From Magnolia sinica (taxonomy: Eukaryota; Streptophyta; Magnoliopsida; Magnoliales; Magnoliaceae), in NCBI RefSeq assembly GCF_029962835.1, contig NC_080584.1, positions 77,528,862 through 77,592,861 on the forward strand: 64,000 nt of DNA, read 5' to 3'. Positions within the stretch are counted from its first letter, which is position 1. Each line of letters opens with the position of its first letter. The position numbers were made by a program, and so were the translations under genes. Under the pieces are notes generated by a model, which was not told the DNA's origin, made no database searches, and saw only the letters and a list, made by a program, of their open reading frames with translations. Below, one piece after another: positions 8,778 to 56,409 of this stretch.

Positions 8778-8890
8778 GAGACCTTGTCTACCCATTCGTG
8801 CTTTAGAAGCCTACAATTCCCTCGATAAAGGGAGTCAATTACTCCATCAACACTACCCAAACATTAGTTTCTCAACCATTTCTTCGATCA

Positions 8891-10360
8891 ATGGCTTCCA
8901 CAACATCTAACCATGTGATATTGTTCCCTTTCATGACCCAGGGACATCTCAACCCTTTCCTAGCCTTTGCACATCTGCTCGAGCGACATACTCAATTCAC
9001 CATCACCATCGTCAACACTCCTCTCAACGTCCAAAACCTTCGAAATGCACTGCCTTCAGACACCACGATCCGACTCATGGAACTCCCATTCGACAGCTCT
9101 GAACATGGCTTACCACCTAACAGTGAGAACAACGAGACCTTGCCCGGCCATCTTTATTCTACATTCTTCCATGCCACACTTACACTAGAAGCTACCTTCG
9201 AACGCCAACTCATCGACATATGCCGAAGAGATGGGCACCCCCCTCTTTGCATAATCTCCGATATGTTCTTTGGATGGACGGTTTCTATTGCCAAGAGGCT
9301 TGGAATACTCCATGCTGTCTTTCTTACTGGTGGAGCTTACAGTATGGCGGGTTATTTATCCCTTTGGCTGCATCTACAACGTCAGAAAGATTCAAACGAA
9401 TTTGGCCTAGTGGGCTACCCTGAAACATTCCGTCTCCATCATTCCCAACTCGATGGTTTAATCCACTTAGCCCATGCTGATGAGCCTTACTTTCTCTCAC
9501 TCAAACAACAGATATCACTTTCTTTAGGCTCCGAAAGTATTTTATGTAATACAGTGGAAGAGATGGAAACAACCGGATTGGAACTTTTACCAAAGTTGTT
9601 CGGGTTACCCGTTTGGCCCGTCGGTCCTCTAGTCCCCTCTTTGATCGAACCTTCCACTTCTAGGAAATTCTCAAGGACAGGAAAGGAGCCCACAGTATCT
9701 TCTGATCAATGCGTTGCGTGGCTGAATCTACACCCTCCATCTTCGGTTCTCTACATAGATTTTGGCTATCAAAATCACATATCGACTTTGCAGATGATGG
9801 AGCTCGCAATGGGTTTGGAGTCAAGTGGCAAGGCATTCATCTGGGTCCTTAATCCTCCGATGGAGCATGAAGAGAGTGTTGAACTTAGACCTGAGTGGCT
9901 GCCCAAGGGATTTGAAGATAGGATGAAGGAAAGAAAACAAGGGCTATTGATCTATAAATGTGCTCCACAGTTGGAAATTCTATCCCATAAATCGACGGGT
10001 GCATTTCTAAGCCATTGTGTTTGGAACTTGGTCCTGGAGAGCTTGAGCCTGGTTGTACCCATCATCGGGTGGCCGTTGCAGATAGAGCAGTTCTTTAATT
10101 CGACAGTGTTGGTGGAGTTGGGTGTATGCTTGGAAATGGTGATAGGGGTGGAGGAGAATGCAGTGAGCCGAGAGGTGGAGAGGGTGGTTGGGCTAGTAAT
10201 GGGTGGGACAAAGAAAGGAGAGGAGATGAAGAGGAAGGCAATTGCCATTTCAGAAATGTTGAAGGCTGCTGTGAGAGATGATGGGGGTGAGAAGGGATCT
10301 TCTGTTTCTGCTATTGGTGCTTTTTTCAGGTGGATCAATCAAAGAAAGATGCTGGAGTGA
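8891..10360 (+). CDS. Family-1 UDP-glycosyltransferase, UGT92-like, degenerate donor motif
   Basis: A single-exon 489-codon frame has the length and layout of plant family-1 (GT1) glycosyltransferases, which move a sugar from a UDP-sugar to small acceptors in the cytosol. The N-terminal acceptor half carries the catalytic His (H19 in MTQGHLNPF) and the partner Asp (D124 in IISDMFFGW), closest by eye to the UGT92 group. The C-terminal PSPG sugar-donor motif spans about 357-400 and is clearly recognisable (CAPQLEILSHKSTGAFLSH, GWPL, EQ end). Several near-invariant positions are changed: the first Trp is C357, the HCGWNS core is HCVWNL (G to V at 377, S to L at 380), and the upstream SFGS loop is DFGY (290-293). 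The frame is otherwise intact. It may be a recently decaying paralogue or an altered enzyme. The start was chosen as the first Met before the conserved N-terminal strand. A foldback MITE ends about 113 bp upstream. Acceptor is unknown. Confidence 0.85.
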   Translation: MASTTSNHVILFPFMTQGHLNPFLAFAHLLERHTQFTITIVNTPLNVQNLRNALPSDTTIRLMELPFDSSEHGLPPNSENNETLPGHLYSTFFHATLTLEATFERQLIDICRRDGHPPLCIISDMFFGWTVSIAKRLGILHAVFLTGGAYSMAGYLSLWLHLQRQKDSNEFGLVGYPETFRLHHSQLDGLIHLAHADEPYFLSLKQQISLSLGSESILCNTVEEMETTGLELLPKLFGLPVWPVGPLVPSLIEPSTSRKFSRTGKEPTVSSDQCVAWLNLHPPSSVLYIDFGYQNHISTLQMMELAMGLESSGKAFIWVLNPPMEHEESVELRPEWLPKGFEDRMKERKQGLLIYKCAPQLEILSHKSTGAFLSHCVWNLVLESLSLVVPIIGWPLQIEQFFNSTVLVELGVCLEMVIGVEENAVSREVERVVGLVMGGTKKGEEMKRKAIAISEMLKAAVRDDGGEKGSSVSAIGAFFRWINQRKMLE

Positions 10361-13294: not shown

Positions 13295-13299
13295 CTCAT

Positions 13300-15653
13300 T
13301 GTTGAGGGTCGAATATTGTATATCAGACCCCGATTACTGCCTGATTTTACGTACACGATAATGCCTAATATTATAATTTAATCGTGTTTTTGTTGCAGGA
13401 TGTAATAAGGAGCTTTGATTGAAAAAGAGTATTAAAAGCATGGATTTAATGCTCCGAAGTCACCAGAGCAAGGAATGGACTCCAAGGGACCGAGATCGAT
13501 GGATAAACACGTCAGAGATTCGAGAAAATTGAGAAACTGAAGCTTAAGTGGCCTGAAAGTTAGTCAGAATGCAAGATCACAGGGTTTCCACCATCCACTC
13601 GCCTCGAAACTTCATACATGGCCTGAGGACCATAAATTAACCGTACACGTCAAATTTCAGCTATTAGATCCTTGTGGAAGTGGCCCAATAGAGAGATCAG
13701 CGGATAATAACCATTAAGAAAGCATCTTGGATATCCTTGGGAGATCTGGACCCAAACTGAACTGATGGAAAGAGCACGAAAAACGGTGGATATTTGTCAA
13801 ATTTCACTTCTTTTGGATGGTGCAATCAGGAGATACTGACGGCAGAAGATATAACAAAACAGAATGGCAAATCTGTAAATAGATGTGCCATGCATGGCTT
13901 ACGTGAAGCCCATTGTTTTTTTAAACAGTGAATGTTGTCCATACATTGGTTAAGCGTGTGGCCCACCCTGAAGTCAGATCTACTTTAAACTGGAAGCCAT
14001 GGGCTAACACTATGTATAGGAGCTGATGGAGGGAGTGGATCTACAAGAATGTCATCATAAGTGGGCCTCACCAATTTTTTGTACAAAACATGCAAATAGT
14101 AAAAAAAGTCCAGTGACGTACGTGCCTGTGATTGGGTTTTTACAGTGAGCTCCATCCATCATCCTTTTTCATGATCTGGACCGTCCAATGTGTCCTAGAG
14201 GGGTGGCTTGACCCTCTCGTAGGTGGAGGAATTATAGAAGATAGCATGAAGCGGATTTCAACCATTCAAACGGAGGACAGACGACTAGAAGATCTGGTAC
14301 CATGGGCCGCATCAAACTCGAGACCAATCAGCCTGTCCCGAACGGTTTTCCGAGGAGAACACAATGGACGTGGTGGATTTCTCGTCTGACACTGATTTTG
14401 GGCCCCACCATCGAAACAGCGCAAGTGCCATCCGCCATCCCTGTTTTAGCGCCGGACACTGGGCGTTCCTTTTTTGGCCATTGCACGATCATGGCAATGA
14501 TCGGATAGAAGATCTGATCCGTCCATCATGTAGCTCATTCAAAAACGTCCCAAGGGATGTTGATTTTACGGACAGATTGCAAGAAAAATGGGAGTTTGGA
14601 GGCTCCGAATTTGACTGCGTAAGGGTCATTCACGCCATCGACTTTCTAGTTCGGTGAACTGCTGTCCGTAAAGACCTCTTCCGCAGCCTATTTCTTTTGG
14701 GACTCCACAGCAGCTCCAAAGGAGTCCTTTCATCTTTAAAAAGGAGGAGACGTGCAGGAGAGAAGGGGTAATTTTCAGGCGGACGGTTGGAGCGTGTGGA
14801 AGGAAGCTTGGCGTGGGCAGCCGTGGAGGCCAAGAGAGAGGAAGAAACAAGGTGGACGTGACTGGAACGTGAGGCTGGAATAGGATTGAGATCTGGTTCT
14901 CTCTTTCCTTCTTGTTCTTTTCTTTCTCTTTTTATTTTTATTTTGTTACTTTGTTTAGCCCATTCATGTGTGGCTAATCCTCCTAGCTAGGGCTAAGAGG
15001 TGAAGCTTGTATTGAGATGGGAGACTCTATTTATTGATTTAATTATTTAATTGTGAATTAAACTTGATTGTGGTATAATTATTAAGGGATGTTTGTAGTT
15101 TTTAATGGTCTATTGTGACTGAAATTACAATGGGTCTGAGATAGCTTTGAGCATGTCCCTTTCTTTTTGTGTTTATGACGTCAGGAAGTCCTGTTGTTCA
15201 CCATCGTCTCATGGGCATGGTCGGATGACGGTACCCTTCCTAACTTTCATGCACTATTGATTGGTTGGTAATTAGTTTAATCCTGTTGTTTGCTTTGTCT
15301 CCTGGGCATGGTTAGATGATGGAATCCATTCTAATTCATATACCTTTCATCTCTTGAAAACCAGATCAAGTAAGTTCAGTTTAAATTTCATAATTCTTGA
15401 TGCAGGCATAAGATCTCCCTGATCCCTACAAGTGGATCCTCTGAATCCCTAGTTTCCTTCCTCTAAATTCCTTAAGTTATTAGATAATTATTCCACAATT
15501 ACTCCTTAAATTCTATTTGATTTAGATTGCATCTTAGGCTAGTTTTATTTCTAGTTAGTTTCAGGAAACGTACAAGTTTCAGTCCCTGTGGATTCGACCT
15601 CGGTCTTACCGAGTTTATTACTACATCACAACCCTATACTTGGGGAGTGAACA
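13300..15653 (+). repeat. Left LTR of the inverted-LTR element
   Basis: 2354 bp, starting TGTTGAGG and ending GAACA, followed by agtttt and then the primer-binding site. It matches the reverse complement of 19346-21700; in the parts compared the two differ by about one to two percent, so the element is young. A tttaaaaagg TATA-like word lies near 14733, followed by a pyrimidine-rich tract. The short open frames inside it are mirrored in the other copy and are not genes. Confidence 0.85.
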
Positions 15654-15659
15654 AGTTTT

Positions 15660-15677
15660 TGGCGCCGTTGCCGGGGA
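15660..15677 (+). other. Primer-binding site, tRNA-Asp type
   Basis: TGGCGCCGTTGCCGGGGA is complementary to the 3' end expected for tRNA-Asp and lies six bases after the left LTR. This primer is characteristic of the Tat/Athila branch of plant Ty3/gypsy elements. Confidence 0.85.
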
Positions 15678-16210
15678 CTGACGGTTACGTTTTTCTGAAA
15701 TTAATTAATTTTAGAATTAGGTTGGGATTAGGATTTTACTAACTTTAGGTTAAAGGTTTTTATTTTATTTTATTTTTAGAAACTAACCTGTTTTCCTGTT
15801 TTGTAGGTTCCTGAAATAACTTCTAAACTGGTAATCCCTTTCTAATTCCTCTACTTTTTCTATTTTTAGAATTAGTGTTTGAATTTTAGAAATTTTCTAA
15901 TTCTGGAACTTTCCTTTTTAGGAACTAACTTTCTATTTTTATTAACTTTCTAATTCTAACTCTTTTAGAATCTAACTTTGTTTCCTAATTTAGTTTTAGA
16001 AATTTCTACTTGTAGACTTTTTGTTTAAAAAAACTAACATTCCTTTAGAATTTTTAAATTTAGAAACTAATTTTTATTGTTTTCTTTTGCAGGATCTTAA
16101 TATAAGAATCTCTAGTCTGGTAACATCTTTCTAACTTCTCCTCTTACTTTATGTATTGTTATAGGATTTTTCTTTTTTTCTAGGATTAGACTCAGAGTTA
16201 GGGTTCTACC

Positions 16211-17992
16211 ATGGAAGCGTGGGTACGTGCATATGCCGAGATGGATAAGAGATATTGGGGAATGCCTGAGGGTTGTGGAATTCAACGTATACCTCAAGAT
16301 TCTTCTCCATCAAGAACAGACATTGAGAACCGACTAAAACGTTATGTTCCATCTGTTAATAGGGCCGTATATGATCGTAATTATGGAAACGAGGATTATT
16401 ATCAACCATCATATTCTCCCATGTATGATCAGTATGACTATTACCAGGGGAAACATCAAAATTTGGAAGATGAACCAACTATATGCTATAATGATTACCC
16501 TCTTGGATACCCTACCATTGATATCCAACCAGAAACAATCCAAGAGGCTCAGCGTCGCCTGGCCTATCTCACTGAAATGAGAAAATCGTTGGAAGTGCTT
16601 AATTCGCGCCTTGATAAGATAGAGGAGGCTCGGTTATCTCAACCACAATTCATTCCAGAAATACAATGCGAGAAAAGTGATCCTAACTCGCTTTGGAAGA
16701 ACTCCGGAATTACAAATGAGGAGTTGGATTCTATCAATGAGCCGATGGTTCAATGTCCCGCTGAGTTGATCTCAATGACTGTTCAAAGGAATGGTCAAGA
16801 TGCGTGGGTATCTTTCAAATACAGTGATGATGACACACTTTCCTCACATGACACACAGGATCTCAATGATGACGTAGAGGTTAGTTTTTTCAAACCTCAA
16901 CCGAACTTAGGTGTAGAATATGAGGAGAGCAACCCCATCCCAAGTGTGTACTGCACGGAATTAGACAATGATGCTTATTGGGATGATGATCATGAATATA
17001 CAGCCCAAAGTCCCCTAGAATCAATCTCAAGTTTGGTCCAGGTCAATGATCAAGACGTACATGAAGTGGTCGGTCATAATAAGCCACTCCCCTCACCTGA
17101 CATGTCTGATTTTAAGGTGGAGGATGAGCCCCTTACAATAGACCCTTCTAACTCTTGTGAAACATGTTTAGACCACTCCTCTGAATTAAATGATGATGTG
17201 ATTCGGGAGAAGGACGAGTTGCTTGCTACGACCTTGGAAATTGAAACCACTAAGTTGAGGCCACCATCTGAGCTGTACACGTTTGACAATTCAACACCTC
17301 GATTGAGTAGTTTCAATGAACAAAGTGATCACATCGATGCTTCCCCTATTGATTTTCAATCTATCTGTGCAGGGCTGGAGCAAGAGAGCACACCTCCGTT
17401 TACCTTTAAAGACAATGGATTCCTTGGGCAGATCATCACAAGTTTTAATGTGGAAAATGAGTCACCCTCAACTGAATGTCCCAACTCTTTTGATGATTGT
17501 TTGGCACACTTTGCAGATTCAAATGATCCCATGATAAGAGACATAGTGAATGCCTTGCAAGACAACATCTCGGTAGTCATCACTGACCTAGAGAACCCTT
17601 ACTTTGAAGCCCCTTCTTCCATAGATCCTGAATGTTTACCATTAAGGGAGGAGGAGCTGAAAATTGAGCCGAAGTTTGGAACTTCAGAATGTGTTGAGAC
17701 TACATCACTTTTTAAGAAGTTTTCTAAACTTTATTTACGTGTAGTCTCTAATTCACCATGGAGTACTAACGTTGAAACTTCTTCTGTCACAGGTGAATCG
17801 TATATATGTTGGATACCTCAAGCTATTCAATGGAAAATTTCTTATGAGGTACATAAGTCTCTCTGGAAAGTCATGCTCCAGGGCGCCCAAGCCTATTGCA
17901 AAAAGGGCTTTTGGATGATCTTGCTAAGGAACTTACTGAGAGACTTATCACGATATTGGCCGGAAGAGGACCCTTGCAGCATGATCGAGTAG
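16211..17992 (+). CDS. Unknown acidic ORF of the inverted-LTR element
   Basis: An uninterrupted 593-codon frame lies about 530 bases after the primer-binding site, where gag would be. I do not recognise it: there is no capsid domain, zinc knuckle or pol motif. The N-terminus has a Tyr-rich patch (about 55-80, NEDYYQPSYSPMYDQYDYYQ) and then a likely coiled coil (about 105-145, with QRRLAYLTEMRKSLEVLNSR). The rest is strongly acidic and Ser/Pro-rich. It appears built from repeats: LISMTVQRNGQDAW is echoed by SISSLVQVNDQDVH, and a module with PSNSCETCLDHSSELND is echoed by PNSFDDCLAHFADSND. The C-terminus turns basic and Trp-rich. Its intactness in a pol-less element may mean youth or a role in packaging. 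It could instead be a remnant of a captured gene. Confidence 0.5.
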   Translation: MEAWVRAYAEMDKRYWGMPEGCGIQRIPQDSSPSRTDIENRLKRYVPSVNRAVYDRNYGNEDYYQPSYSPMYDQYDYYQGKHQNLEDEPTICYNDYPLGYPTIDIQPETIQEAQRRLAYLTEMRKSLEVLNSRLDKIEEARLSQPQFIPEIQCEKSDPNSLWKNSGITNEELDSINEPMVQCPAELISMTVQRNGQDAWVSFKYSDDDTLSSHDTQDLNDDVEVSFFKPQPNLGVEYEESNPIPSVYCTELDNDAYWDDDHEYTAQSPLESISSLVQVNDQDVHEVVGHNKPLPSPDMSDFKVEDEPLTIDPSNSCETCLDHSSELNDDVIREKDELLATTLEIETTKLRPPSELYTFDNSTPRLSSFNEQSDHIDASPIDFQSICAGLEQESTPPFTFKDNGFLGQIITSFNVENESPSTECPNSFDDCLAHFADSNDPMIRDIVNALQDNISVVITDLENPYFEAPSSIDPECLPLREEELKIEPKFGTSECVETTSLFKKFSKLYLRVVSNSPWSTNVETSSVTGESYICWIPQAIQWKISYEVHKSLWKVMLQGAQAYCKKGFWMILLRNLLRDLSRYWPEEDPCSMIE

Positions 17993-18409
17993 TTTTTTCC
18001 TGCTTTCATAGGACTAGGGTAGTTTATTTTATGTTTTTTTAGGATAGATGGTAAACTTAGCGCTCCTGGCAGGCAACTTAGCTTTTCATTGCATTTTATT
18101 TTCTTAGTTCAATGTTTGTGGGTAACATTGCTGCAAACCCTCACGAGACTACAACTCGTCCACTAGGGGCAACCTAGGGGTTTAAAGGCTTGTTGCATAC
18201 GCTAAATGCAATCGAGAGTACCTGCGAAAGTGGTGTAGGTAGGATTTCATTTTTGTTATTTTTATTTTACTTCTGTTGGTTTCTCTCTTGTGCTGACCCG
18301 ATCTTACGTAGATATCTTTGGAAAGCCTTTTGATTCTTTCGTCCAGGTACTATCTTTCCATCACTCCTCTTATATTTTTGTTGTCCCATGTGCATTGCAT
18401 GCTTATTTC

Positions 18410-19336
18410 TTTTACATTGAGGACAATGTAGATTTTAGGTTGGGGGTGGGAGATTAGGTTTCCTAATCAGCATTTTCTTGGTCTTGAACAAAAATTGTGA
18501 AATTTTTCAAAAATCTTTTTCTGAAATTTTTATGAATCCGAAGTGATTTTGACAACCATCTTGGATTTAGAATTACAAGATGAGTGATGTTGGTAATTTA
18601 TGATTCTTAGATTCAGTTATTTATTATATTAGATTTCACAGTTAAGTTTGAAGTGTTAATCTCTGATTAGAAGTTGTAAACATTGATTGAGTTATGATCT
18701 CACATGTCACATCTCGCTTTCACATTAAGGTTTCAGTTTGATATTGAAGGATTTACTTGGTACTCACTAAGCTTGAAGGGAACCAACCTGAGAAATTGAA
18801 AGGATTGGGCAAATGGTTGACGCCATAGGTTTGCTCCCTATAGGTGTAGATTTAATTCGCTATGAATGATATGTGAAAATTTGGGTATACAGTTTTCATC
18901 ATAGGTTTGCTCCCTGTAGGTGAGGATTTGATTCCCCTTCTTGGCGTTACTTTTAATAGAAAAATCAAAAGCTGAAGGAATGAAAAGATGATCTGTGAGG
19001 CAAGTTTTGGTTATCATGAATCTTCTTATTGGTTACTAATGATATCCTGAAATAGAGAAGTGAACTTAATGATGATAAGCCGAGATTTCATTATACACTC
19101 ATGGTACTCATTGTTTAGAATTGTTCTAATTAATGCATAAATACTTTAAACTTGATTATGAACTTTATTGTGCGCTTGATTCCAGGAGGAAGTAATGCCC
19201 AACAGTCATGCATCTTAGAATTTTCGTATCTAGATTGCTTTTCAAAAATCACTTGAGTTCATAGAGATTGTCCTATAATTCTCGACTTATTTTTCGCATA
19301 CTTTGCTCGGGACTAGCAAAATGCTGGTTGGGGGTT
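18410..19336 (+). other. Gypsy-type 3' region with polypurine tract
   Basis: At about 18415-18452 stand acattgaggacaatgt and ggttgggggtggg, and at about 19312-19335 gggactagcaaaatgc and ggttggggg. These pairs are familiar from the 3' end of Tat/Athila elements, the last being the polypurine tract directly before the 3' LTR. Here the tract is followed by ttgcaaaaact and then by an LTR in the wrong orientation. Between them (18780-18960) a segment with the words cataggtttgctccctataggt occurs twice. Confidence 0.6.
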
Positions 19337-19345
19337 GCAAAAACT

Positions 19346-21700
19346 TGTTCACTCCCCAAGTATAGGGTTGTGATGTAGTAATAAACTCGGTAAGACCGAG
19401 GTCGAATCCACAGGGACTGAAACTTGTACGTTTCCTGAAACTAACTAGAAATAAAACTAGCCTAAGATGCAATCTAAATCAAATAGAATTTAAGGAGTAA
19501 TTGTGGAATAATTATCTAATAACTTAAGGAATTTAGAGGAAGGAAACTAGGGATTCAGAGGATCCACTTGTAGGGATCAGGGAGATCTTATGCCTGCATC
19601 AAGAATTATGAAATTTAAACTGAACTTACTTGATCTGGTTTTCAAGAGATGAAAGGTATATGAATTAGAATGGATTCCATCATCTAACCATGCCCAGGAG
19701 ACAAAGCAAACAACAGGATTAAACTAATTACCAACCAATCAATAGTGCATGAAAGTTAGGAAGGGTACCGTCATCCGACCATGCCCATGAGACGATGGTG
19801 AACAACAGAGCTTCCTGACGTCATAAACTTAAAAGGAAAGGAACATGCTCAAAGCTATCTCAGACCCATTGTAATTTCAGTCACAATAGACCATTAAAAA
19901 CTACAAACATTCCTTAATAATTATACCACAATCAAGTTTAATTCACAATTAAATAATTAAATCAATAAATAGAGTCTCCCATCTCAATACAAGCTTCACC
20001 TCTTAGCCCTAGCTAGGAGGATTAGCCACACATGAATGGGCTAAACAAAGTAACAAAATAAAAATAAAAAGAGAAAGAAAAGAACAAGAAGGAAAGAGAG
20101 AACCAGATCTCAATCCTATTCCAGCCTCACGTTCCAGCCACGTCCACCTTGTTTCTTCCTCTCTCTTGGCCTCCACGGCTGCCCACGCCAAGCTTCCTTC
20201 CACACGCTCCAGCCGTCCGCCTGAAAATTACCCCTTCTCTCCTGCACGTCTCCTCCTTTTTAAAGATGAAAGGACTCCTTTGGAGCTGCTGTGGAGTCCC
20301 AAAAGAAATAGGCTGCGGAAGAGGTCTTTACGCACAGCAGTTCACCGAACTGGAAAGTCGATGGCGTGAATGACCCTTACGCAGTCAAATTCGGAGCCTC
20401 CAAACTCCCATTTTCCTTGCAATCTGTCCGTAAAATCAACATCCCTTGGGACGTTTTTGAATGAGCTACATGATGGACGGATCAGATCTTCTATCCGATC
20501 ATTGCCATGATCGTGCAATGGCCAAAAAAGGAACGCCCAGTGTCCGGCGCTAAAACAGGGATGGCGGATGGCACTTGCGCTGTTTCGATGGTGGGGCCCA
20601 AAATCAGTGTCAGACGAGAAATCCACCACGTCCATTGTGTTCTCCTCGGAAAACCGTTCGGGACAGGCTGATTGGTCTCGAGTTTGATGCGGCCCATGGT
20701 ACCAGATCTTCTAGTCGTCTGTCCTCCGTTTGAATGGTTGAAATTCGCTTCATGCTATCTTCTATAATTCCTCCACTTAGGAGAGGGTCAAGCCACCCCT
20801 CTAGGACACATTGGACGGTCCAGATCATGAAAAAGGATGATGGATGGAGCTCACTGTAAAAACCCAATCACAGGCACTTACGTCACTGGACGTTTTTTTA
20901 CTATTTGCATGTTTTGTACAAAAAATTGGTGGGGCCCACTTATGATGACATTCTTGGAGATCCACTCCCTCCATCAGCTCCTATACATAGTGTTAGCCCA
21001 TGGCTTCCAGTTTAAAGTAGATCTGACTTCAGGGTGGGCCACACGCTTAACCAATGTATGGACAACATTCACCGTTTAAAAAAACAATGGGCTTCACGTA
21101 GGCCATGCATGGCACATTTATTTACAAATTTGTCATTCTGTTTTGTTATATCTTCTGCCGTCAGTATCTCCTGATTGCACCATCCAAAAGAAGTGAAATT
21201 TGACAAATATCCACCGTTTTTCGTGCTCTTTCCATCAGTTCAGTTTGGGTCCAGATCTCCCAAGGATGTCCAAGATGCTTTCTTAATGGTTATTATCCGC
21301 TGATCTCTCTATTGGGCCACTTCCACAAGGATCTAATAGCTGAAATTTGACGTGTACAGTTAATTTATGGTCCTCAGGCCATGTATGAAGTTTCGAGGCG
21401 AGTGGATGGTGGAAACCCTGTGATCTTGCATTCTGACTAACTTTCAGGCCACTTAAGCTTCAGTTTCTCAATTTTCTCGAATCTCTGACGTGTATATCCA
21501 TCGATCTCGGTCCCTTGGAGTCCATTCCTTGCTCTGGTGACTTCGGAGCATTAAATCCATGCTTTTAATACTCTTTTTCAATCAAAGCTCCTTATTACAT
21601 CCTGCAACAAAAACACGATTAAATTATAATATTAGGCATTATCGTGTACGTAAAATCAGGCAGTAATCGGGGTCTGATATACAATATTCGACCCTCAACA
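19346..21700 (-). repeat. Right LTR of the element, inverted
   Basis: 2355 bp, the reverse complement of 13300-15653, with its U5 end inside and its U3 start (TGTTGAGG on the minus strand) at 21700. The match to the left side continues eight bases past the LTR (agtttttg), up to the first bases of the primer-binding site, and then stops. Confidence 0.85.
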
Positions 21701-21705
21701 CTCAT

Positions 21706-22185
21706 CTCATCTCATCTCTTATCTTATCTCTCCTTATCCCAACTCTCCCTCATATCTCATAGTCTCCCAACAAACGCTCTCTCTTAAGGAGGGATTGCAT
21801 GAGAGCAGTCGTCCTACTAAGACTCAAAGAAAAGAAAGAAAATCGTATAAAAAAATGAGAGAAAGGCTTTTGGAAATCACTTAGGAATTCATTGTATACG
21901 TCTTCTCTTTGTTTTCTTTTTATATTAGTTTAATTTGGTAGTGATCTACACATTAGACAGATTGGATCAATTAGGAATTCATTGTATACGTCTAACTCAT
22001 TCAAATGGAAAGCTACACTGATGCGCATAGCTTTAGGGCTGATGTGTAGAGAGTGAGATTTTTTCGTGATGGACATCAATCGATATGATCTGTATAATTC
22101 ATGGGTTTTCTAAGAGTCAATCACATAATGATTTCAAGAATCAGACATATTCGATACCTCAATGGATTATATCGATCATAAATTT
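21706..22185. other. Intergenic, short direct repeat
   Basis: Begins with a ctcat and tctt low-complexity run. A direct repeat containing taggaattcattgtatacgt occurs at about 21883 and 21972. No gene seen. Confidence 0.45.
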
Positions 22186-29162: not shown

Positions 29163-29541
29163 TGTTGGAAGTCCAAACCAAATCGTCTGTCCGATTCTCA
29201 AGGACAATAAATGTTGGAAGAATCTTCCAACAACCAGGGCATTTCTCCATGTGGCTGTTCAGTTCCTCCATGTAGAATCTTTTAATATTTTATTTTGGTG
29301 TTTGTACAGCAATTAATACCATGCCCCTATAGTGTAATTTATAAGGGCATTTTTGTCTTTTCACCTTGGTGAAAAATGTCTATATAAGGGAGCTCTTGTA
29401 GTCCGTTTGGAATTAAGTCAGTGAGCTTGTGAGCAATAATAAAAACAATAGCAAAGTTTCTCTTCTCATTCTTACGTGTCCAGTGAGTTCAACTCTAAGG
29501 CTTTGTAAAGCCAAGAAGAGCTCTAGCTAATACAGCCATCA
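29163..29541 (+). repeat. 5' LTR of the copia element
   Basis: Starts TGTTGGAAG, ends AGCCATCA. A ctatataagg TATA-like box lies near 29381. Same length as the 3' copy despite compensating small indels. Confidence 0.92.
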
Positions 29542-29544
29542 AAT

Positions 29545-29556
29545 TGGTATCAGAGC
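29545..29556 (+). other. Primer-binding site, tRNA-Met type
   Basis: TGGTATCAGAGC three bases after the 5' LTR, the standard copia primer match to initiator tRNA-Met. Confidence 0.9.
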
Positions 29557-29752
29557 TGTCCTCCGCAACAGCATCCTCTTCTTTCTTTTTCTCAACTTGA
29601 GCTCTATCACGAACAGTTTGCCTGGAGCGTTCCTCAGCAGCACCCTCCTCCACGTTCTGTTTCTGAACTTGTGCTTCATCACAATCAGCGTGAGAAGATC
29701 CTTCTCCAATAAAAGTGTCCTTCGGTTTCTGTTTCTCAGTGACTAGGTTCAT
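29557..29752 (-). other. Antisense acidic/basic open frame in the copia leader
   Basis: Between the primer-binding site and gag the minus strand has an ATG-initiated open frame (start at 29752) running to the primer-binding site and on into the LTR. The peptide is charged and contains two similar 20-odd-residue stretches (AQVQKQNVEEGAAEERSR and AQVEKKKEEDAVAEDSSD). It looks like real coding sequence more than leader sequence and could be a captured host-gene piece, but I recognise no family. Chance openness cannot be excluded. Confidence 0.35.
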
Positions 29753-30053
29753 TTTCTAAAAGAAGTTTTTTAGTTTTTTTCAGCCAAGTACAGATTTCTT
29801 TGAAGGAAAATCTGTTTGAAAAAAATTCAGATTGCAAAGCTAAGTTTTCAGCTGCTTGAAGTTGCCAGCAATTTTTCCTAGCCAAGGGAAGAAAAATCTA
29901 TTCAACAACAAAAATCAGATTTCAAAAAAAAAAATAAATCAGTTTTCAAAAGTTTTTCTAGCTAAGAAAAAATCTATTTTCTATTTCATCTCTCTCTCCC
30001 TTCATTAAAAAGGAAAAATCAGTCATTTCTTCCTTTAAAAAAAAATAGAAAAG

Positions 30054-30980
30054 ATGGCCGGCTCAATCCAGCCGTAGGTTCCTAAGTTATCAAAGGACAA
30101 CTATGAAAAGTGGTGCATCCAAGTGAAGGCGTTATTTGAGTCGCAAGAACTATGAGAGATCATCACCGATGAGTATGTAGAACCCACTATGGAGGAAGAA
30201 GCAGCCTTCACCAATGAAGAAAAGACCGCTCTCAAAAATCAAAGGAAGAACGATAACAAGGCTTTGTTCCTCCTCTATCAAGGGTTGGATGAATCAACCT
30301 TTAAAAAAATTGCCGAAGTGACATCAAGCAAGCAAGCATGGGATACCCTTAGCACCATCTTCAAGAGTGTTGATCGAGTGAAGCGAGTTCACCTTCAAAC
30401 ATTAAGAGCCGAGTTCGAAGCGGCGCACATGAAGGAAGGTGAAACTATCTCTGACTACTTCTCACGTCTAATTGTTATTATTAACAATTTAAAAAGAAAT
30501 GGTGAAAAAGTTGAAGACATACGTGTCATTGAAAAGGCATTGTGATCTCTCACAACCAAATTTGAGCATGTGGTTGTGGCGATCGAAAAATCAAAGGACT
30601 TGGAAAAACTATCCATTGAAGAACTGATGGGATCATTGCAAGTACATGAGCAGCGAATGCAAAAAAAAAATGCTGGTTCAATGCTTGAACATGCCTTAGA
30701 GTCTAAGCTGACTCTAAATGAACAAAAGAATGGTCATACACAACGAGGCGACCGTGGCATTAGAAATCATGCAAGAGGCAGAGGGCGTGGATATCATCCA
30801 AGCCATCAACAAAATCAACAAAAATTTACCAGTTTTCGTAGAAGAGGAAATGGTAGAGGCTGGGTCATATGTGGTCGAGGAAACACAAAGAAAGTTCAAT
30901 GCACAATTGTAAGAAATTCAGCCATTATGCCTCTGAGTGTTGGAGCAAAGTGGATCAAGATGAACGATCCAACTATGCTG
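30054..30980 (+). pseudogene. Copia gag (UBN2-type), broken
   Basis: The ATG at 30054 opens a copia gag with NYEKWCIQVKALFE and TLSTIFKSVDRVKRVHLQTL. In-frame stops occur at 30075 (TAG), 30153 (TGA, a Trp position) and 30543 (TGA). A frame change follows near the A run at 30661-30670. The CCHC zinc knuckle around 30890-30935 is still visible (HNCKKFSHYASEC), but one base appears to be missing between its first two Cys codons, so the knuckle is broken. Gag forms the virus-like particle of the element. Confidence 0.85.
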
Positions 30981-30999
30981 AAGCATCACACCATGAACA

Positions 31000-33900
31000 A
31001 GAAAACTCCACACTCCTCGCACAAGAGAAGGCAGGTAAACAACCAGATGTGTGGTATCTCGACACGAGTGCAAGCAAGCACATGAGTGGTAACAAAGAAC
31101 TGTTCGTGGAACTCACAGAAGTAGTTCGTGGCGACGTGAGTTTTGGCAACTCATTAAAAGTACCCGTGATAGGTAAAGGAAAAATTAAATCTATCAGAAG
31201 AATGGTGAGCCAAATTACATCTTTAATGTATATTACGTACCAAACATGAAAAATAACATTCTCAGTATCAGCCAACTCCTTGAGAAGGGGTATGGCATAC
31301 ACATGGAGAACTGTTCTCTCTCTATAAGAGATGCTCACAGGAGACTTGTGGCTCAAGTCCAAATGGTGAAGAATCTCATGCTTCCGCTCCATATTACCAT
31401 AAAGGCTGAGAAGTGTTTCTATGGACTCGTGAAGAATGATTCATGGAGATGGCATCTTCGCTTTGGGCATCTCCATTTCAATGGCCTTAAACTCTTATCC
31501 TCATTGAGCATGATGCATGGCTTGCCGACTATTGAAGCTCTAGAACATGTGTGTGAGACGTGCACACTCGGCAAGTAACAAAGGAACTCCCTTCCAAGTG
31601 AAGTATTTAGAAGAGCAAAGGAACCACTTCAGTTGGTTCACACTAATATTTGCAAACCACTTGAAACACTCTCTCTTGGAGGTAATAAATACTTTATTAC
31701 CTTCATTGATGATTTCAGTAAAAAACTTTAGGTGTATCGCATCAAAGAAAAATCTTTCGCTTTACTATCTTTAAAATTTTCAAAGCTCGTATTGAAGTTG
31801 AAAGTGATCACAAAATTAAAGTACTCAGATCTGACAGAGGTGGAGAGTTCACCTCAAATGCATTCCAAATTTTTGCAGGGAACAAAGCATCAAAAAATAA
31901 CATACTGCAGCTTACACGCCACAACATAATGGAATTGCGAAACGGAAGAACCATACCATCCTCTACATAATGAGGACCATACTGAAGGAGAAAGGCCTAC
32001 CAAAGATCTTCTGGGAAGAGGCAATTACATATACTGCCTACCTGCTCAATCGGTGTCTAACCAAGAGTGTCAGAAACATGACACCACAAGAAGCATGGAG
32101 TGGCTACAAACCGAGCGTGGCGCACCTAAAGATCTTTGGGTGTGTCGCCTACGCTCAAGTTCCAGAAGCAAGAAAAAGGAAGCTTGATGATCGGGGCGAA
32201 AAATGCATCTTCATCGGCTACAATGAAGGATCTAAAGCCTACAAGCTCTACAATCCACTAACTAATAAAGTAGTGGTGAGTAAAGATGTGGTCTTTAGTG
32301 AGGAAGAAGCTTGGAAATGGAATGATGAAGAATCGACCAAAGATATTTTAGTTGAAACAGAAGAACATGAAGAAAGGCATGACCGTCAAGAGCAAACGCC
32401 CACAACACCTTCTTCTGCCGCATCATCAATATACAGAAGTCCAGGAGTATATTCCATCAGTCCTGAAAGTACTCCATTAAGTCAAAATTCGGCCAACTCG
32501 TCCTCACCCATGACACCTATAAAAATAAAAAGCATAAGCGACATCTATGAGCAAACTGAAGAGGTCAATCTTTTCTGTCTGTATGCAGATCATGAGCCTC
32601 TGACATTTCAGGAGGCCATAAAAGAAGAATGTTAGAGAATCGCTATGACAAAAGAAATTCATGCCATTGAGAGAAATGACACATGGGAGCTGACTACGCT
32701 TCGTAATGGCCAGAAAACTATTGACGTCAAATGGGTGTACAAGATCAAGAGAAATGCTGATGGTGAGATCGATCGCTACAAGGCAAGGCTTGTAGCAAAG
32801 GGCTACAAACAGAAGTACGGGGTGAACTATAAAGAAGTCTTCGCTTCTGTTGCTCACCTTGACACTATGAGGATGATTATCTCCCTTGCAGCCCATCGCA
32901 ATTGGATGATCTACCAACTAGATGTGAAATTTGCATTCCTAAATGAAATTCTGAAAAAAGAGGTCTATGTTGACCAACCTGAAGGCTTTGTTATGCAAGG
33001 AGAGGAATACAAGGTGTATCGACTGAAGAAAGCCTTATATAAGTTGAAGCAAGCTCTACGTGATTGGAATGCTTGCATCAACAACTATCTTTAAGAGAAC
33101 GGCTTCGCCCAATGTCCATATGAGCATGCAGTTTATATAAAGAAGAATGCTCATGGTGATATGCTTATAGCATGCCTATATGTTGATGATTTGTTGTTTA
33201 TAGGAAACAGCTGACCAATGCTTGATGAATTCAAGAAAGCCATGTTTAAGGAGTTCAAGATGACCGACGAAGGTCTCATGTCCTTTTTTTTGGGCATTGA
33301 AGTGAAGCAACAACATGGTGGCATTAATATATCTCAGAAGAAGTATACCATGGAATTGCTTGAAAAGTTCAAGATGGCCGATTGCAATGCTGTAAATATG
33401 CCTATAGCAACGGGCTTAAAACTGACAAAGGACGGAGAAGGAAGAAGCATTAACTCGACTATGTTTAAGAGTCTGATTAGAAGCCTAAGCTACCTCACAA
33501 TCATAAGGCTGGATATCGTCTATAGTGTTGAGCTTCTAAGTAGGTACATGGAAGCACCAAAAGAATCACACTGACTAGCCGCAAAAAGAATCCTCAGGTA
33601 TGTCAAAGGAACAATGAAATTCAGTCTTTTCTATCCATACGATGATGAAGCAATATTGTATGGATACTCAGACAGTGATTAAGGAGGTGACCAAGATGAA
33701 AGAAAGAGCACCATTGGCTATGTATTCTATCTCGGAACGATTGCTTTCACATGGAATTCGAAGAAGCAGAGTGTGGTCGCCCTGTCCACATGTGAAGCAG
33801 AGTACGTGGCAGCATCGTCCACTATCTGTAAGGGAATTTGACTGAGAAACCTACTAAAGGAGCTAAAGCATCCGCAGGAAGGATCCACAGTCATATATGT

Positions 33901-34129
33901 GGATAACAAGTCAGCAATCGAACTAGCCAAAAATCCGGTGCAACATAAAAGAAGCAAACACATTGATACCCGATATCATTTTCTGAAAGATCACGTGAAG
34001 CAAAAAACGAAAAAATTAGAGTATTGTCATACTGCAGAACAGGTGACGTATATTTTCACAAAGACATTACCGACAAATGCATTCAAACGACTAAAAACAA
34101 TGCTCGGAATGAAGCCGATTTTGGTTTGA
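31000..34129 (+). pseudogene. Copia pol: protease, integrase, RT and RNase H, broken
   Basis: Domains appear in copia order. Protease has WYLDTSASKHMSG (31050-31090), with Ser for the usual Gly of the DTGAS site. The integrase zinc region has WHLRFGHLH and CETCTLGK (31450-31577, ending in a stop). The integrase core (31680-32300, several frames) shows FIDDFS and RSDRGGEFTS. RT (32645-33200) shows WVYKIKRNADGEIDRYKARL and the catalytic YVDD (33178-33189). RNase H (33650-34127) has a stop in place of Trp after YSDSD. Several further stops and frameshifts exist, so no active polyprotein can be made. Confidence 0.9.
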
Positions 34130-34136
34130 AGTGGAG

Positions 34137-34515
34137 TGTTGGAAGTCCAAACCAAACCGTCCGTTAGATTCTCAAAGACAATAAATGTTGGAAGAAGCTT
34201 CCAGCAACCAGGGCGTTTCTCCATGCGGCTGTTCAGTTCCTCCATGCAGAATCTTTTAATATTTTATTTTGGTGTTACAACAGTTAATACCATGCCCCTA
34301 TAGTGTAATTTATAAGGGCATTTTTGTCTTTTCACCTTGGTGAAAAATGTCTATATAAGGGAGCTCTTGTAGTCCGTTTGGGCTTAAGTCAGTGAGCTTG
34401 TAAACAACGGTAAAAAAAAAAGAAGCAAAGTTTCTCTTCTCATTCTTATGTGTCCAGTGAGTTCAAATCTAAGGCTTTGTAAAGCCCAGAAGAGCTCTAG
34501 CTAATATAGCCATCA
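34137..34515 (+). repeat. 3' LTR of the copia element
   Basis: 379 bp, starting TGTTGGAAG straight after a short purine tract (gaagtggag) and ending AGCCATCA before the right TSD. Confidence 0.92.
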
Positions 34516-35704: not shown

Positions 35705-43258
<7,554 letters not shown>

Positions 43259-43339
43259 CTGGGCTCTAAAGAGCTGTTTTGAGTGAGAACAGAAGCTTAG
43301 AGAGGTGGAAATGTGAATGTATGAATGGATGGGAATCAT

Positions 43340-46032
43340 TTGATGTTTTTGAAGTCTTTGGACGGCAGTTTTTCCCTCTTTAGATGTTAAAGTCTAAGTC
43401 TAAGTCTCCATTACTGTGGTAATCAAAGTCTTCGTTTCTGTTTTCAGAAATGGTCCAATGCTCATAGCACTACGAGGTACAGTACTCCTACTTGCATCAG
43501 GGCACTTGAACAGTTCAAGTGATTGATCTGGACAGTACATTAGGTTGAAAACACATTTTATAGGTCATCATGAAAAAAGGCCACCCTGGTCGGATGATCC
43601 GATCCATAAATAAGTTATTACAAATGAACTAGTGGATAGTAGCGCATACTAGGATTTGGGCACTTGGACGGTTCAATCATTAAATTTGGAAAGCCAATTA
43701 GGTACATGGATTACCATTTAAAACTTGCATGGATCGGATGATCCAGTCGGTTTGTAACTGACCCATTTCTTGGACATCATGGATGGATGGTTAGGATTGT
43801 TTGATAAAAAGTGATTTTTCATAAAGTAAAGTAATCTATGATGGGTCCCAGTAAATGGGTGAATGAATTTGTTGATTGGCCTATTTTTCATAAATGATCA
43901 TGATCGTATAATACATGTTGAGAAATGCATCCAAAGTTATGTTGCTTTGAGATTACATTTTTATTTATTTATTTATTTATTTATTTTTAAACCTTAGAAA
44001 TACTTTAGTGCTCTGAGAGTACTTTAAGTTACAGTGGTCCTAGTGGCACTGGGACACTTATACAGTCCAATCATCCAGACGGTTCAATAGGTGCAGGGCA
44101 CATTTCATGGCTTACCATGCAAACAAGACACTGATCTGACAAATACAACAAGTAGATCAATCGCCTTTAATATGGACGGTCAAGTAATTCAGACATAAAT
44201 AGGCCCACCACTAACCAATTTGATCCATCTCTCTGTTAGGACCCATTATGGAATGCTCATGATTCTAAAGAATCACTTTTGTTAGGGAATTGTAATCATC
44301 CCATCCATGGCTTGGAAAATGGATGGCTATTAAAACCAAGGCAAATCAAGGACAGATTGAATCATCTGATCAGTGCAATTTTTACATAATAGCCCATAGA
44401 ATGTCTTGGAGTTAATGGACATTTCAGATGGATGGACTGGACTATCCAAGTGAACCAATGCATCTGTAAGAACAATGACTTGTAGTTTCCTTACATTGCT
44501 ATTAGAGCCTCAAAATTCCTCCATGATTCGGATTTTCCCAAATAATACCTCTACAAATCTAGGTTATTGGAGTCATCTTTTTTTCTTTTTTATTTTTCTT
44601 TTTTATTTATTTATTTTTTCTTACAAAATAGAAAAACTAGAATTATGGGGCCATGTTGCATGCTTCTCATATCCAACTCTTCCTACATATGCAAATCAAC
44701 ATTATTATTGGACAAACAAAAAATATGGTCCATCCAATTGTAAAGTGAGCTAAGCCATAAATTTTTTTTAAAATAATAATAAAATACACCATTCAAAATA
44801 TCTTATCTGATGATATGATTGGCCTGATGTTCTGTTCATGTTATATATCTTCATGGTGGGATGCGTACATTGGACAGTTTGGATGTTAGACACTATAAGT
44901 TATAATGCTCCTACCTGTATTGGGAGACTTAGGCAATCCAAAGGCTTGATCTAGAATGCACAACAGGTCCTACACAGATTTTACAAGCTACCATGCAAAT
45001 ATCTCACTAATCTGACAAGGCCACCTCCATGATCATTAGCCTTTAATTGTACGGTCCAGATATACACAACATAGGCCCACTGAAAAAATTGATCAATCCA
45101 TTTGTTAGGGAAGAACATCATATATTGCTTTTTATTATAAAAGGTCACTCTTGTCAGGTTTCCTAGCCATCCAACCCATGGCTCGAAGCTAGGATGACTA
45201 TAAAAAGAATGACAAATCAGAGATGGATGGATCATCGGATCTATCAGTGTGACTTTTTCCAAGTATCCATCAAATTTATTTTGGATTTAATAGACAGCTT
45301 AAAGTAGTAGGCTGGACTATCCAAGTGACCGATGCAGCCAGGAACACTATAACTTATAATGCTTTGAGAACGCCCAAGCTTTTTTCTTTATATATTTTAT
45401 ACTATTTTGCATAAATGATTCATTCTTTTATAGTTCTTTAATTTATTTTAGTTTATTTATTTTAATTACATTTTATAAAAGATCCACAATTATTATTATT
45501 ATTATTATTATTATCATTATTATTTATAAATGATCCGTTATTCTTGAAGGACTCTAAGTCACAGTGCCCCCACTTCATCATACTCCAAATGCGAGAATTA
45601 GACCATGTGAACCATTTGATCAATTGCCTATAAATGCATGATCATGGTTACTGATAATAAGAATTGCTTCCAATTTATTGACAAGCCTCCATTTGGTCGG
45701 CAACCGTGGATTGCATTTTTGACATGATCCTAACCATCTCATAGATGGCATGGAAAATATATGGCTATAGATAAGAAGGCCACCTTTTGGGCAGAGAGGT
45801 GTTTGCGCAATTCAATCAAGCACAAGCTCACATGTGTGATCCGGAGCTTGTGTTTAAATTTCGTGAGCAATTATGAAGTGTGGACATGTCAAAATTGTAC
45901 TCAACTTAATCTTTGATTAAACGCTAGTGATGCCCACATTGAAACGACTGATCAGTAAAAACGAATTCGGAAATCCACCTATTCAGTCAGCCATAGGTTC
46001 TAATTAGTGATTAGGCGATTTGCAAAAGTGTA
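43340..46032. repeat. Kinase 5' flank and a dispersed repeat family
   Basis: After the kinase promoter region, related segments recur at about 43470, 43650, 44030, 44890 and 45550 (and again near 49745). Each has words such as agt(t/c)acagtg(c/g)tcc, gggacacttat or gggcacttgga, and later accatgcaaa and ggcccacc. The clearest pair is 44030-44230 and 44890-45110. An (att)n microsatellite lies at about 45490-45515. No gene seen. Confidence 0.45.
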
Positions 46033-54200: not shown

Positions 54201-55740
54201 CAAGATTGACGATCAGTCATTTTTACAATATGAACAACACCCCCTATAATTTCTCTCTTCTAATTGAACCAAACCTAGTTATTACAAATTTTGAAAATTA
54301 CAATCTTTAATTTCAAAATATTATATATCCAAACATAGTAACATGATAATTCCCAACCCAAGGCTAAATCTTCCACGAACATTTATGGGAAAATCTTTTT
54401 CTACAACTCTTAATAACTCATTTATAAAGGTCATTTACTAGAGTGTAAAAATTATTGACATGCCTCAAACTTATTCACCTATCTAAACTTAATTCAATTA
54501 CTTTGTTCAATCTACCATGTTATGTTTATATCATCCTACTTGTACATCAAGTGAGCCCCACCATGTGGAAAAAATAAAAATAAAAATAGTCCATAGTATC
54601 AATATTTGAGCTACACTATTAAAAATAAAGGATATCTGCTCAAAAACTTTTTAATTCATGTGATTAGCCACATGATGATTGGATCACTCTTATTTTTGGG
54701 CATCCCACTTTCTTTTATAGGGCAACTTTTCTAGATGGGTTGAATTTTGTATGGAAATTAATGGAGTTTTCCAAAGGATTCATCATATTTCAAATAATCA
54801 TAATATATAATATTCAAATATTACTACAGTAACTCAGCTGTGATTGAATGGTCACCCAACATGGTGGGATATGATTGGGCCATTGCCCGTAATGAATTTC
54901 AAACTGGTTTAATTAAATCTGGGCACGTGTCACCATCTAATCCGCTGGAGCCTCACGAGTCTTCACAAGTCGACTTGACCAGCTTTGGATCACAACTCTC
55001 AAGTTTTAAAAGTATACATGCTATGGGACCCATGATTTGGACAACATGGATTGCCGTGTGCGAAGGGGATGTTAGATGCATGTGAGGGTTTTGATCTAGC
55101 TTTTTTATATCAAGCGTCGGCATGTCCTAACCAAGGGAGCAGATCCGGCCGATACCTCCCACTCATGGGAGGTACGGTGAGTCCCGGGTTACTGTTGGAA
55201 GCGTAGAATATATGGACAATATCCAAACCGTTCATTTGTATGCTTACATGCTAAGTGGGCCGGAGTCCAAAATATATACCGTTTAGATGAACCAAACCCT
55301 TAATTAGTGGCGTATAAATGTACACTGTGAGGAAAATTTCATCAATGGATCAATTCGGTTGGGATAGATTCAAATACTTTTTAGGGCCCCATTGGATGCC
55401 ACCAAATAAGTTACTTTCTACTTACAACAGTAGATAAGTAAGTTTGGTTTATGATAAATTATAACTAACCTTTTTATTTAAAGTTATTTAACCACTTTAG
55501 TTTTATAAACAGAAATCAAGATACACTACTTAAGCAATAAGCAGCTTATTTACGTAATTTATAATCCAATCACCCCTAAGATATTTCAATGAATATAATG
55601 TTTGGTTGATTTGGAATCCATGGCTGAGACCACGAGAGGTTTGCATAACTGGTAAAATATGTTTGAAAGTGATTTGGTTGACCTGGTCAAATGAAGTTAG
55701 ACCAATCAAATTAATCTATATATACATATATATATATATT
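54201..55740. other. Intergenic, no gene seen
   Basis: AT-rich with scattered fragments of gtggg/cccac repeat words; nothing codes. Confidence 0.45.
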
Positions 55741-55806
55741 CAAGTCATGCATGAGTTTTTCCAAGTACTTCTATTGCCTCCCAAGTTTCAACGGTGACAG
55801 TGTATA

Positions 55807-55837
<31 letters not shown>

Positions 55838-55906
55838 TTTCAAGTCATGCATGAGTTTTTCCAAGTACTTCTATTGCCTCCCAAGTTTCAACGGTGACAG
55901 TGTATA

Positions 55907-55937
<31 letters not shown>

Positions 55938-55999
55938 TTTCAAGTCATGCATGAGTTTTTCCAAGTACTTCTATTGCCTCCCAAGTTTCAACGGTGACA

Positions 56000-56073
<74 letters not shown>

Positions 56074-56137
56074 TTTCAAGTCATGCATGAGTTTTTCCAA
56101 GTACTTCTATTGCCTCCCAAGTTTCAACGGTGACAGT
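55741..56137. repeat. Four-copy tandem repeat with TA/T spacers
   Basis: A 61-base core starting caagtcatgcatgagttttt and ending cggtgacagt stands at 55741, 55841, 55941 and 56077, virtually identical. The cores are separated by (ta)n followed by about 12 T. The first two periods are 100 bp and the last is 136 bp through expansion of the TA tract. Confidence 0.95.
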
Positions 56138-56409
56138 CCAATTTCTACTATATGTCCCAACTTTTAGTTCTATCTCAATTTTTATACTGATGTCCTAACA
56201 CGAGCTAGTGGAATTGATTGAGGGAGTAGATTTGATGGCCCCGCATAGATTAGTTCAACATTGGCGTCCAAGACCGAGGAGTCTTGTGTGGCGTAAAAAT
56301 GACAAAGAAAGGAATTCTACGGAGATTAGCGCGAATTTTCCGTTACTGGCAATCTGCATGCCTATTGGAACGCGTGGTTAGGAACTGTTTGAAAGAAGAA
56401 GCATCTGAT

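Follow-up and report, generated by a model that had tools for sequence, protein, structure and literature searches.

How can a plant retrotransposon come to carry two long terminal repeats (LTRs) that face each other inside a single target-site duplication (TSD)? This question is raised by an element at positions 13300–21700 of a 64,000-nucleotide stretch of Magnolia sinica DNA (contig NC_080584.1, 77,528,862–77,592,861), which was analysed as a whole and is called here the window. In our opinion, the locus is probably a single insertion of a miscopied retrotransposon complementary DNA (cDNA) with two U3 (unique 3′) ends, formed by a jump of the plus strand onto strong-stop DNA. An earlier sequence-only reading had offered two explanations, namely an aberrant product of reverse transcription with two U3 ends that was integrated once, and a rearrangement after integration. 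The first is in agreement with both the outer TSD and the inner joint described below; the second, in its simple form of a 3′ LTR inverted in place, fails on eight extra bases at that joint, and a more complex copy-and-insert form of it is considered unlikely.

Outer Ends of the Element

Self-comparison of the window gave one outstanding inverted repeat, 13300–15661 versus 21700–19338, with arms 98.86% identical. The 27 differences in 2363 aligned columns comprise 26 substitutions (20 transitions and 6 transversions) and one gap. The 5′ LTR occupies 13300–15653 on the plus strand (2354 bp, TGTTGAGGG...GTGAACA), and its orientation agrees with the primer binding site (PBS). The inverted LTR lies at 19346–21700 on the minus strand (2355 bp); it also starts with TGTTGAGGG and ends with GTGAACA, and its U3 end points outward. 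TG..CA is present at the LTR ends. Two LTR copies of about 2.35 kb facing each other, U3 outward, with TG..CA at the outer ends, had been claimed from the letters alone, and these claims were confirmed by the LTR sequences and by the 2354- and 2355-bp arms with their 98.9% identity. The extent given for the arms was right for the LTR copies and needed correction at the inner edge, where the right arm runs 8 nt beyond the LTR terminus (19338–19345).

The unit is bounded, as had also been noticed earlier, by ctcat at 13295–13299 on the left and at 21701–21705 on the right. These two copies have the same (direct) orientation, unlike the LTRs. The right side reads CAACACTCAT, while the mirror of the left LTR start with its flank would be CAACAATGAG; after CAACA, CTCAT is found instead of the ATGAG expected from a mirrored left flank. 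Since the right side is not a mirror of the left flank, the inverted duplication ends at the LTR edge, and an inverted duplication taking in flanking DNA was rejected on this ground. The DNA on either side is of simple sequence: the left flank consists of (GT)n(GA)n, and the right flank is a short CTCAT array whose first unit is the right TSD copy. For this reason, the frequency of chance agreement between two 5-mers, one per flank, was measured directly and amounted to 0.0014–0.0041, depending on the flank width (60–1000 bases). A direct 5-bp TSD outside and an inverted repeat stopping at the LTR edge support a single insertion.

Internal Region and a Relative

The left LTR is followed by a six-base spacer, AGTTTT (15654–15659, plus strand), and by the 18-nt PBS TGGCGCCGTTGCCGGGGA (15660–15677, plus strand), which we take to be the complement of the 3′ end of plant tRNA-Asp. 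At its other end, the internal region finishes with a polypurine-type tract, GGTTGGGGGTTG (19326–19337, plus strand). With 2 mismatches, the bare polypurine pattern also appeared in 6 of 100 shuffled versions of the window, and the call of this polypurine tract (PPT) rests on similarity to a relative.

This relative, contig BMWJ01000030.1 (1–3922), is filed under Streptomyces clavifer, is probably plant contamination and was the sole match of a spacer-PBS motif scan of genome contigs. The other genome-contig pattern scan and the plasmid scan gave no match, and the viral contig pattern scans gave one (L002), which was judged by eye, from 501 bases, to be due to chance. On this contig there are the 3′ end of an internal region, a PPT, a single LTR (about 2015 bp), the identical spacer AGTTTT, the same PBS and the beginning of an internal region; the element is possibly a tandem or one-LTR circle form. 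It shares six local alignments with the window, three of them in matching order and strand. The stretch 18115–18272 (plus strand, 85% identity) fixes the orientation of the internal region; 15583–15677 (83%) runs from the LTR end through the PBS; 19294–19337 (84%) reaches the PPT end and breaks off at the start of the LTR of the relative. Another alignment, of 80% identity, covers the end of the inverted LTR, 19416–19338, and ends at 19338, and the remaining two are A-rich low-complexity matches elsewhere. The internal region is thus in the ordinary orientation, and the left LTR is the one that fits the PBS.

An intact open reading frame (ORF) of 593 amino acids (aa) is located inside the element at 16211–17992 on the plus strand. 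No Pfam family was assigned to it at E values up to 10, and its two tblastn matches to the relative (E 3.1 and 8.6) are not convincing. The longest of the other stop-to-stop frames of the internal region has 84 aa, and the Pfam scan covered the 593-aa ORF. Neither the reverse transcriptase and integrase of gag-pol nor a tyrosine recombinase domain was found in this ORF. The PBS and PPT presumably resemble those of the Tat/Athila lineage, and a reverse transcriptase domain for phylogeny was not found.

Inner Joint

The new point beyond the earlier reading is the inner joint. Past the PPT, the sequence continues as CA-AAAACT-TGTTCACTCC, in which TGTTCACTCC is the end of the inverted LTR; as written across the PPT end, the joint is GGTTGGGGGTTG-CAAAAACTTG. 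The inverted arm thus overruns the LTR edge by eight bases (19338–19345, minus strand), which are the reverse complement of the 6-nt spacer and the first two PBS bases. The CA presumably corresponds to the CA of a tRNA CCA end. In the relative, the PPT directly adjoins a normally oriented LTR that starts with TGATAAG or, 2 nt earlier, with TGTGATAAG; this places the joint of the window at what appears to be the PPT/LTR border, within 2 nt. The arms, the TSD, the positions of the PBS and PPT and the joint itself are all read from the sequence.

Only next to a 5′ LTR, or on cDNA that is still unprocessed, would such bases be expected. Neither spacer nor PBS bases should follow an integrated 3′ LTR, so an in-place flip of a resident 3′ LTR should not create this joint, and that explanation was rejected. 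The right arm must therefore derive either from a 5′ LTR together with the adjacent spacer or from an unprocessed U5 (unique 5′) cDNA end. Both partners of the joint, the PPT end at 19337 and U5 with the spacer and the PBS bases TG, are natural ends only in intermediates of reverse transcription. If both break points were placed at random in the 3660-nt internal region, an exact hit at one and a hit to within 2 nt at the other would be expected with a probability of about 3e-4 × 1.4e-3; the frequency of the TSD match is not yet included in this figure.

The spacer would also be retained if a second, reverse-oriented element had been inserted to the right and a deletion had run from the PPT of the first element to the PBS start of the second, because the right arm would then be a 5′ LTR. 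Such an origin from two elements is very improbable in our estimation, as both break points would have to fall at functional borders and the 5-bp outer match would have to arise by chance.

The joint shows no microhomology (0 bases), which bears on a rearrangement after integration. A replication-linked template switch could have copied the 5′ LTR and spacer backwards into the place that the 3′ LTR has in an ordinary insertion; a 5′ LTR as source accounts for the extra spacer bases, and TGTT/AACA, common to the LTR termini, offers a 4-base microhomology for a return switch at the outer edge that keeps the original TSD. We consider this decidedly unlikely, since the first switch would have had to go, by chance and without microhomology, from the PPT end to a point 2 nt into the PBS.

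An artefact of assembly has to be considered as well, because long near-identical repeats are difficult to assemble and the locus is known from the assembly alone. The window, however, contains no N, the joint is new sequence at the border of the repeat and not a join within it, the internal region is not palindromic, unlike the product of a fold-back read, and the outer ends match a TSD. We regard an artefact as extremely improbable.

Proposed Origin

In the standard scheme, the U3 edge is the start of plus-strand strong-stop DNA, and U5, the spacer and bases copied from the tRNA form its end. The right arm matches such a molecule with two tRNA-copied bases. For the single insertion of a miscopied cDNA that we prefer, the following course may be proposed. 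The plus strand would advance to the PPT end, at which it would come up against the 5′ end of plus-strand strong-stop DNA. The growing strand would then jump to the free 3′ end of this DNA (U3-R-U5-spacer plus CA from the tRNA stub) and copy it backwards as far as the U3 end. If the tRNA had already been cut to a CA stub, only two tRNA-copied bases would appear. The resulting linear DNA would terminate in U3 on either side, one of its LTRs being inverted, and integrase would accept both U3 ends in one insertion with a 5-bp duplication. The tRNA-stub source of the two extra bases and the action of integrase are what we infer from the joint and the outer ends.

A strand jump is likewise our inference, and ligation of cDNA ends might have given the same structure. 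An incomplete cDNA ending at the PPT would then have been joined by ligation with a second LTR DNA, at the unprocessed U5 end of the latter, before integration; an origin in reverse transcription is common to both courses, and the strand jump is absent from this one. The blunt joint speaks for end joining, and a cluster of differences between the arms is at least compatible with two source molecules. A duplex ending at the PPT is not known as a usual intermediate, and we find this origin unlikely.

The arm differences deserve a separate comment. Twenty-seven in 2363 columns would fit ordinary decay since one insertion. Six of them fall within 35 nt (P 0.0007), but counting each of two adjacent doublets as one difference reduces this to four in 35 (P 0.093), which leaves the cluster weak as support for end joining; as proof of two templates it was dropped. 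The last 471 columns, on the U5 side, are identical (P 0.064). Neither the cluster nor the identical stretch was used as a basis for conclusions.

Several points weigh against a miscopied cDNA with two U3 ends. A single copy is known, the case consists of one locus and one relative, and the native PPT/LTR joint of the family is derived from this single-LTR relative, in which the LTR start can be shifted by 2 nt (TGTGATAAG versus TGATAAG). Strong-stop DNA normally has more than two tRNA-copied bases, and a two-base stub therefore requires that the tRNA be cut beforehand. The difference cluster, weak as it is with the doublets merged, could mean two templates or gene conversion. A more specific proposal treats the locus as a fossil in the genome, preserved to near base resolution, of a plus strand that jumped onto plus-strand strong-stop DNA; we put it forward tentatively, at slightly less than even chances.

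Comparison with Known Elements

The element has TG..CA LTR ends, a PBS beside the 5′ LTR, a PPT (recognized through the relative) and a 5-bp TSD, as do Ty3/Gypsy-type elements, and differs from them in having inverted instead of direct LTRs. Non-autonomous plant LTR elements without pol are similar in their long LTRs, PBS and PPT; in the element studied, the longest ORF is of 593 aa and belongs to no Pfam family. LARD and TR-GAG are the names of such non-autonomous types, and their LTRs are direct. Autointegration products of retroviruses and Ty1 can have LTRs in inverted order and are made by integrase from processed CA ends, whereas the inner joint here keeps an unprocessed spacer; autointegration is disfavoured for this reason. 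DIRS elements are not known to form a TSD, and the ctcat on both sides disfavours a DIRS identity. DIRS-1 of Dictyostelium has inverted terminal repeats, like the element here, but uses a tyrosine recombinase and circular intermediates (PMC5633606), while the PBS, PPT, TG..CA ends and TSD found in M. sinica are those expected for integrase.

Template-switch complex LTR elements of Triticeae were explained by Sabot and Schulman (2007) as products of abnormal template switching in reverse transcription and of one integration, with outer 5-bp TSDs (PMC1950507). These complexes consist of three LTRs and two internal regions, in contrast to the two LTRs, one of them inverted, of the M. sinica element; no third, internal LTR was found in the window, which contains two LTR copies only. 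The word "inverted" does not occur in the main text of that article.

No integrase-type LTR element with one inverted LTR was found in the literature searched, including the available portions of PMC2253517, PMC2151762 and PMC7215508; this literature was mostly open-access, so older work on retroviruses may hold precedents. Ty1 autointegration circles are mentioned in PMC12786077. In the accessible excerpts of other articles, the term "inverted LTR" refers to LTR pairs at Ty clusters or rearrangement sites in yeast (PMC3536649, PMC5065131, PMC3554576), to the LTR of a Gypsy insertion in locust (PMC8786324) and to the U5-U3 junction of circles in human immunodeficiency virus (PMC1905944).

Other Features of the Window

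A Copia-type element at about 29163–34515 has RVT_2 and SH3 domains, is bordered by ACATG at either end and carries LTRs of about 380 bp that are 92% identical and in direct orientation; it serves as a control, because the ordinary arrangement is present and recognizable in the same window. Just to the right of the element with inverted LTRs, at 21880–21995, taggaattcattgtatacgtct occurs twice, about 90 bp apart. A UDPGT frame is found at 8807–10357, and a frame on the minus strand at 41912–43393 contains B_lectin, S_locus_glycop and PAN_2 domains, as in plant S-receptor-like kinases. Repeats of 116 nt with spacings of 100, 100 and 136 occupy 55714–56165 and include a perfect self-complementary stretch at 56005–56065.

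Conclusions

In a transcript starting in the left LTR, R would lie on the 5′ side and an inverted R on the 3′ side, so the first-strand transfer should fail and the copy is expected to be sterile. The element was probably dead on arrival. Read-through RNA would fold back into arms of up to 2.36 kb with a loop of about 3.7 kb, and this hairpin would be a candidate source of small interfering RNAs, an idea of the earlier reading that follows from the geometry. In a study on Arabidopsis EVD, inverted LTR pairs were sought as a possible trigger of new silencing; no such read pairs were found, and the authors pointed to their insert size as a limit of this test (PMC11624286). Such loci would presumably be missed by LTR finders built to require direct repeats, and their number in plant genomes can be counted.

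If the proposed origin is true, two short-lived intermediates, the PPT cut and the tRNA stub, have left their ends on record in the joint of a plant element. A plant LTR element would then be able to produce linear DNA ending in U3 on both sides, its ribonuclease H would leave the CA of the tRNA attached to the cDNA, and its integrase would be capable, in nature, of concerted insertion of a U3/U3 molecule. An LTR hairpin, a candidate trigger of family-wide silencing, would then arise in one step of reverse transcription, and the locus would be a rare record of how the copying of a retrotransposon can go wrong.

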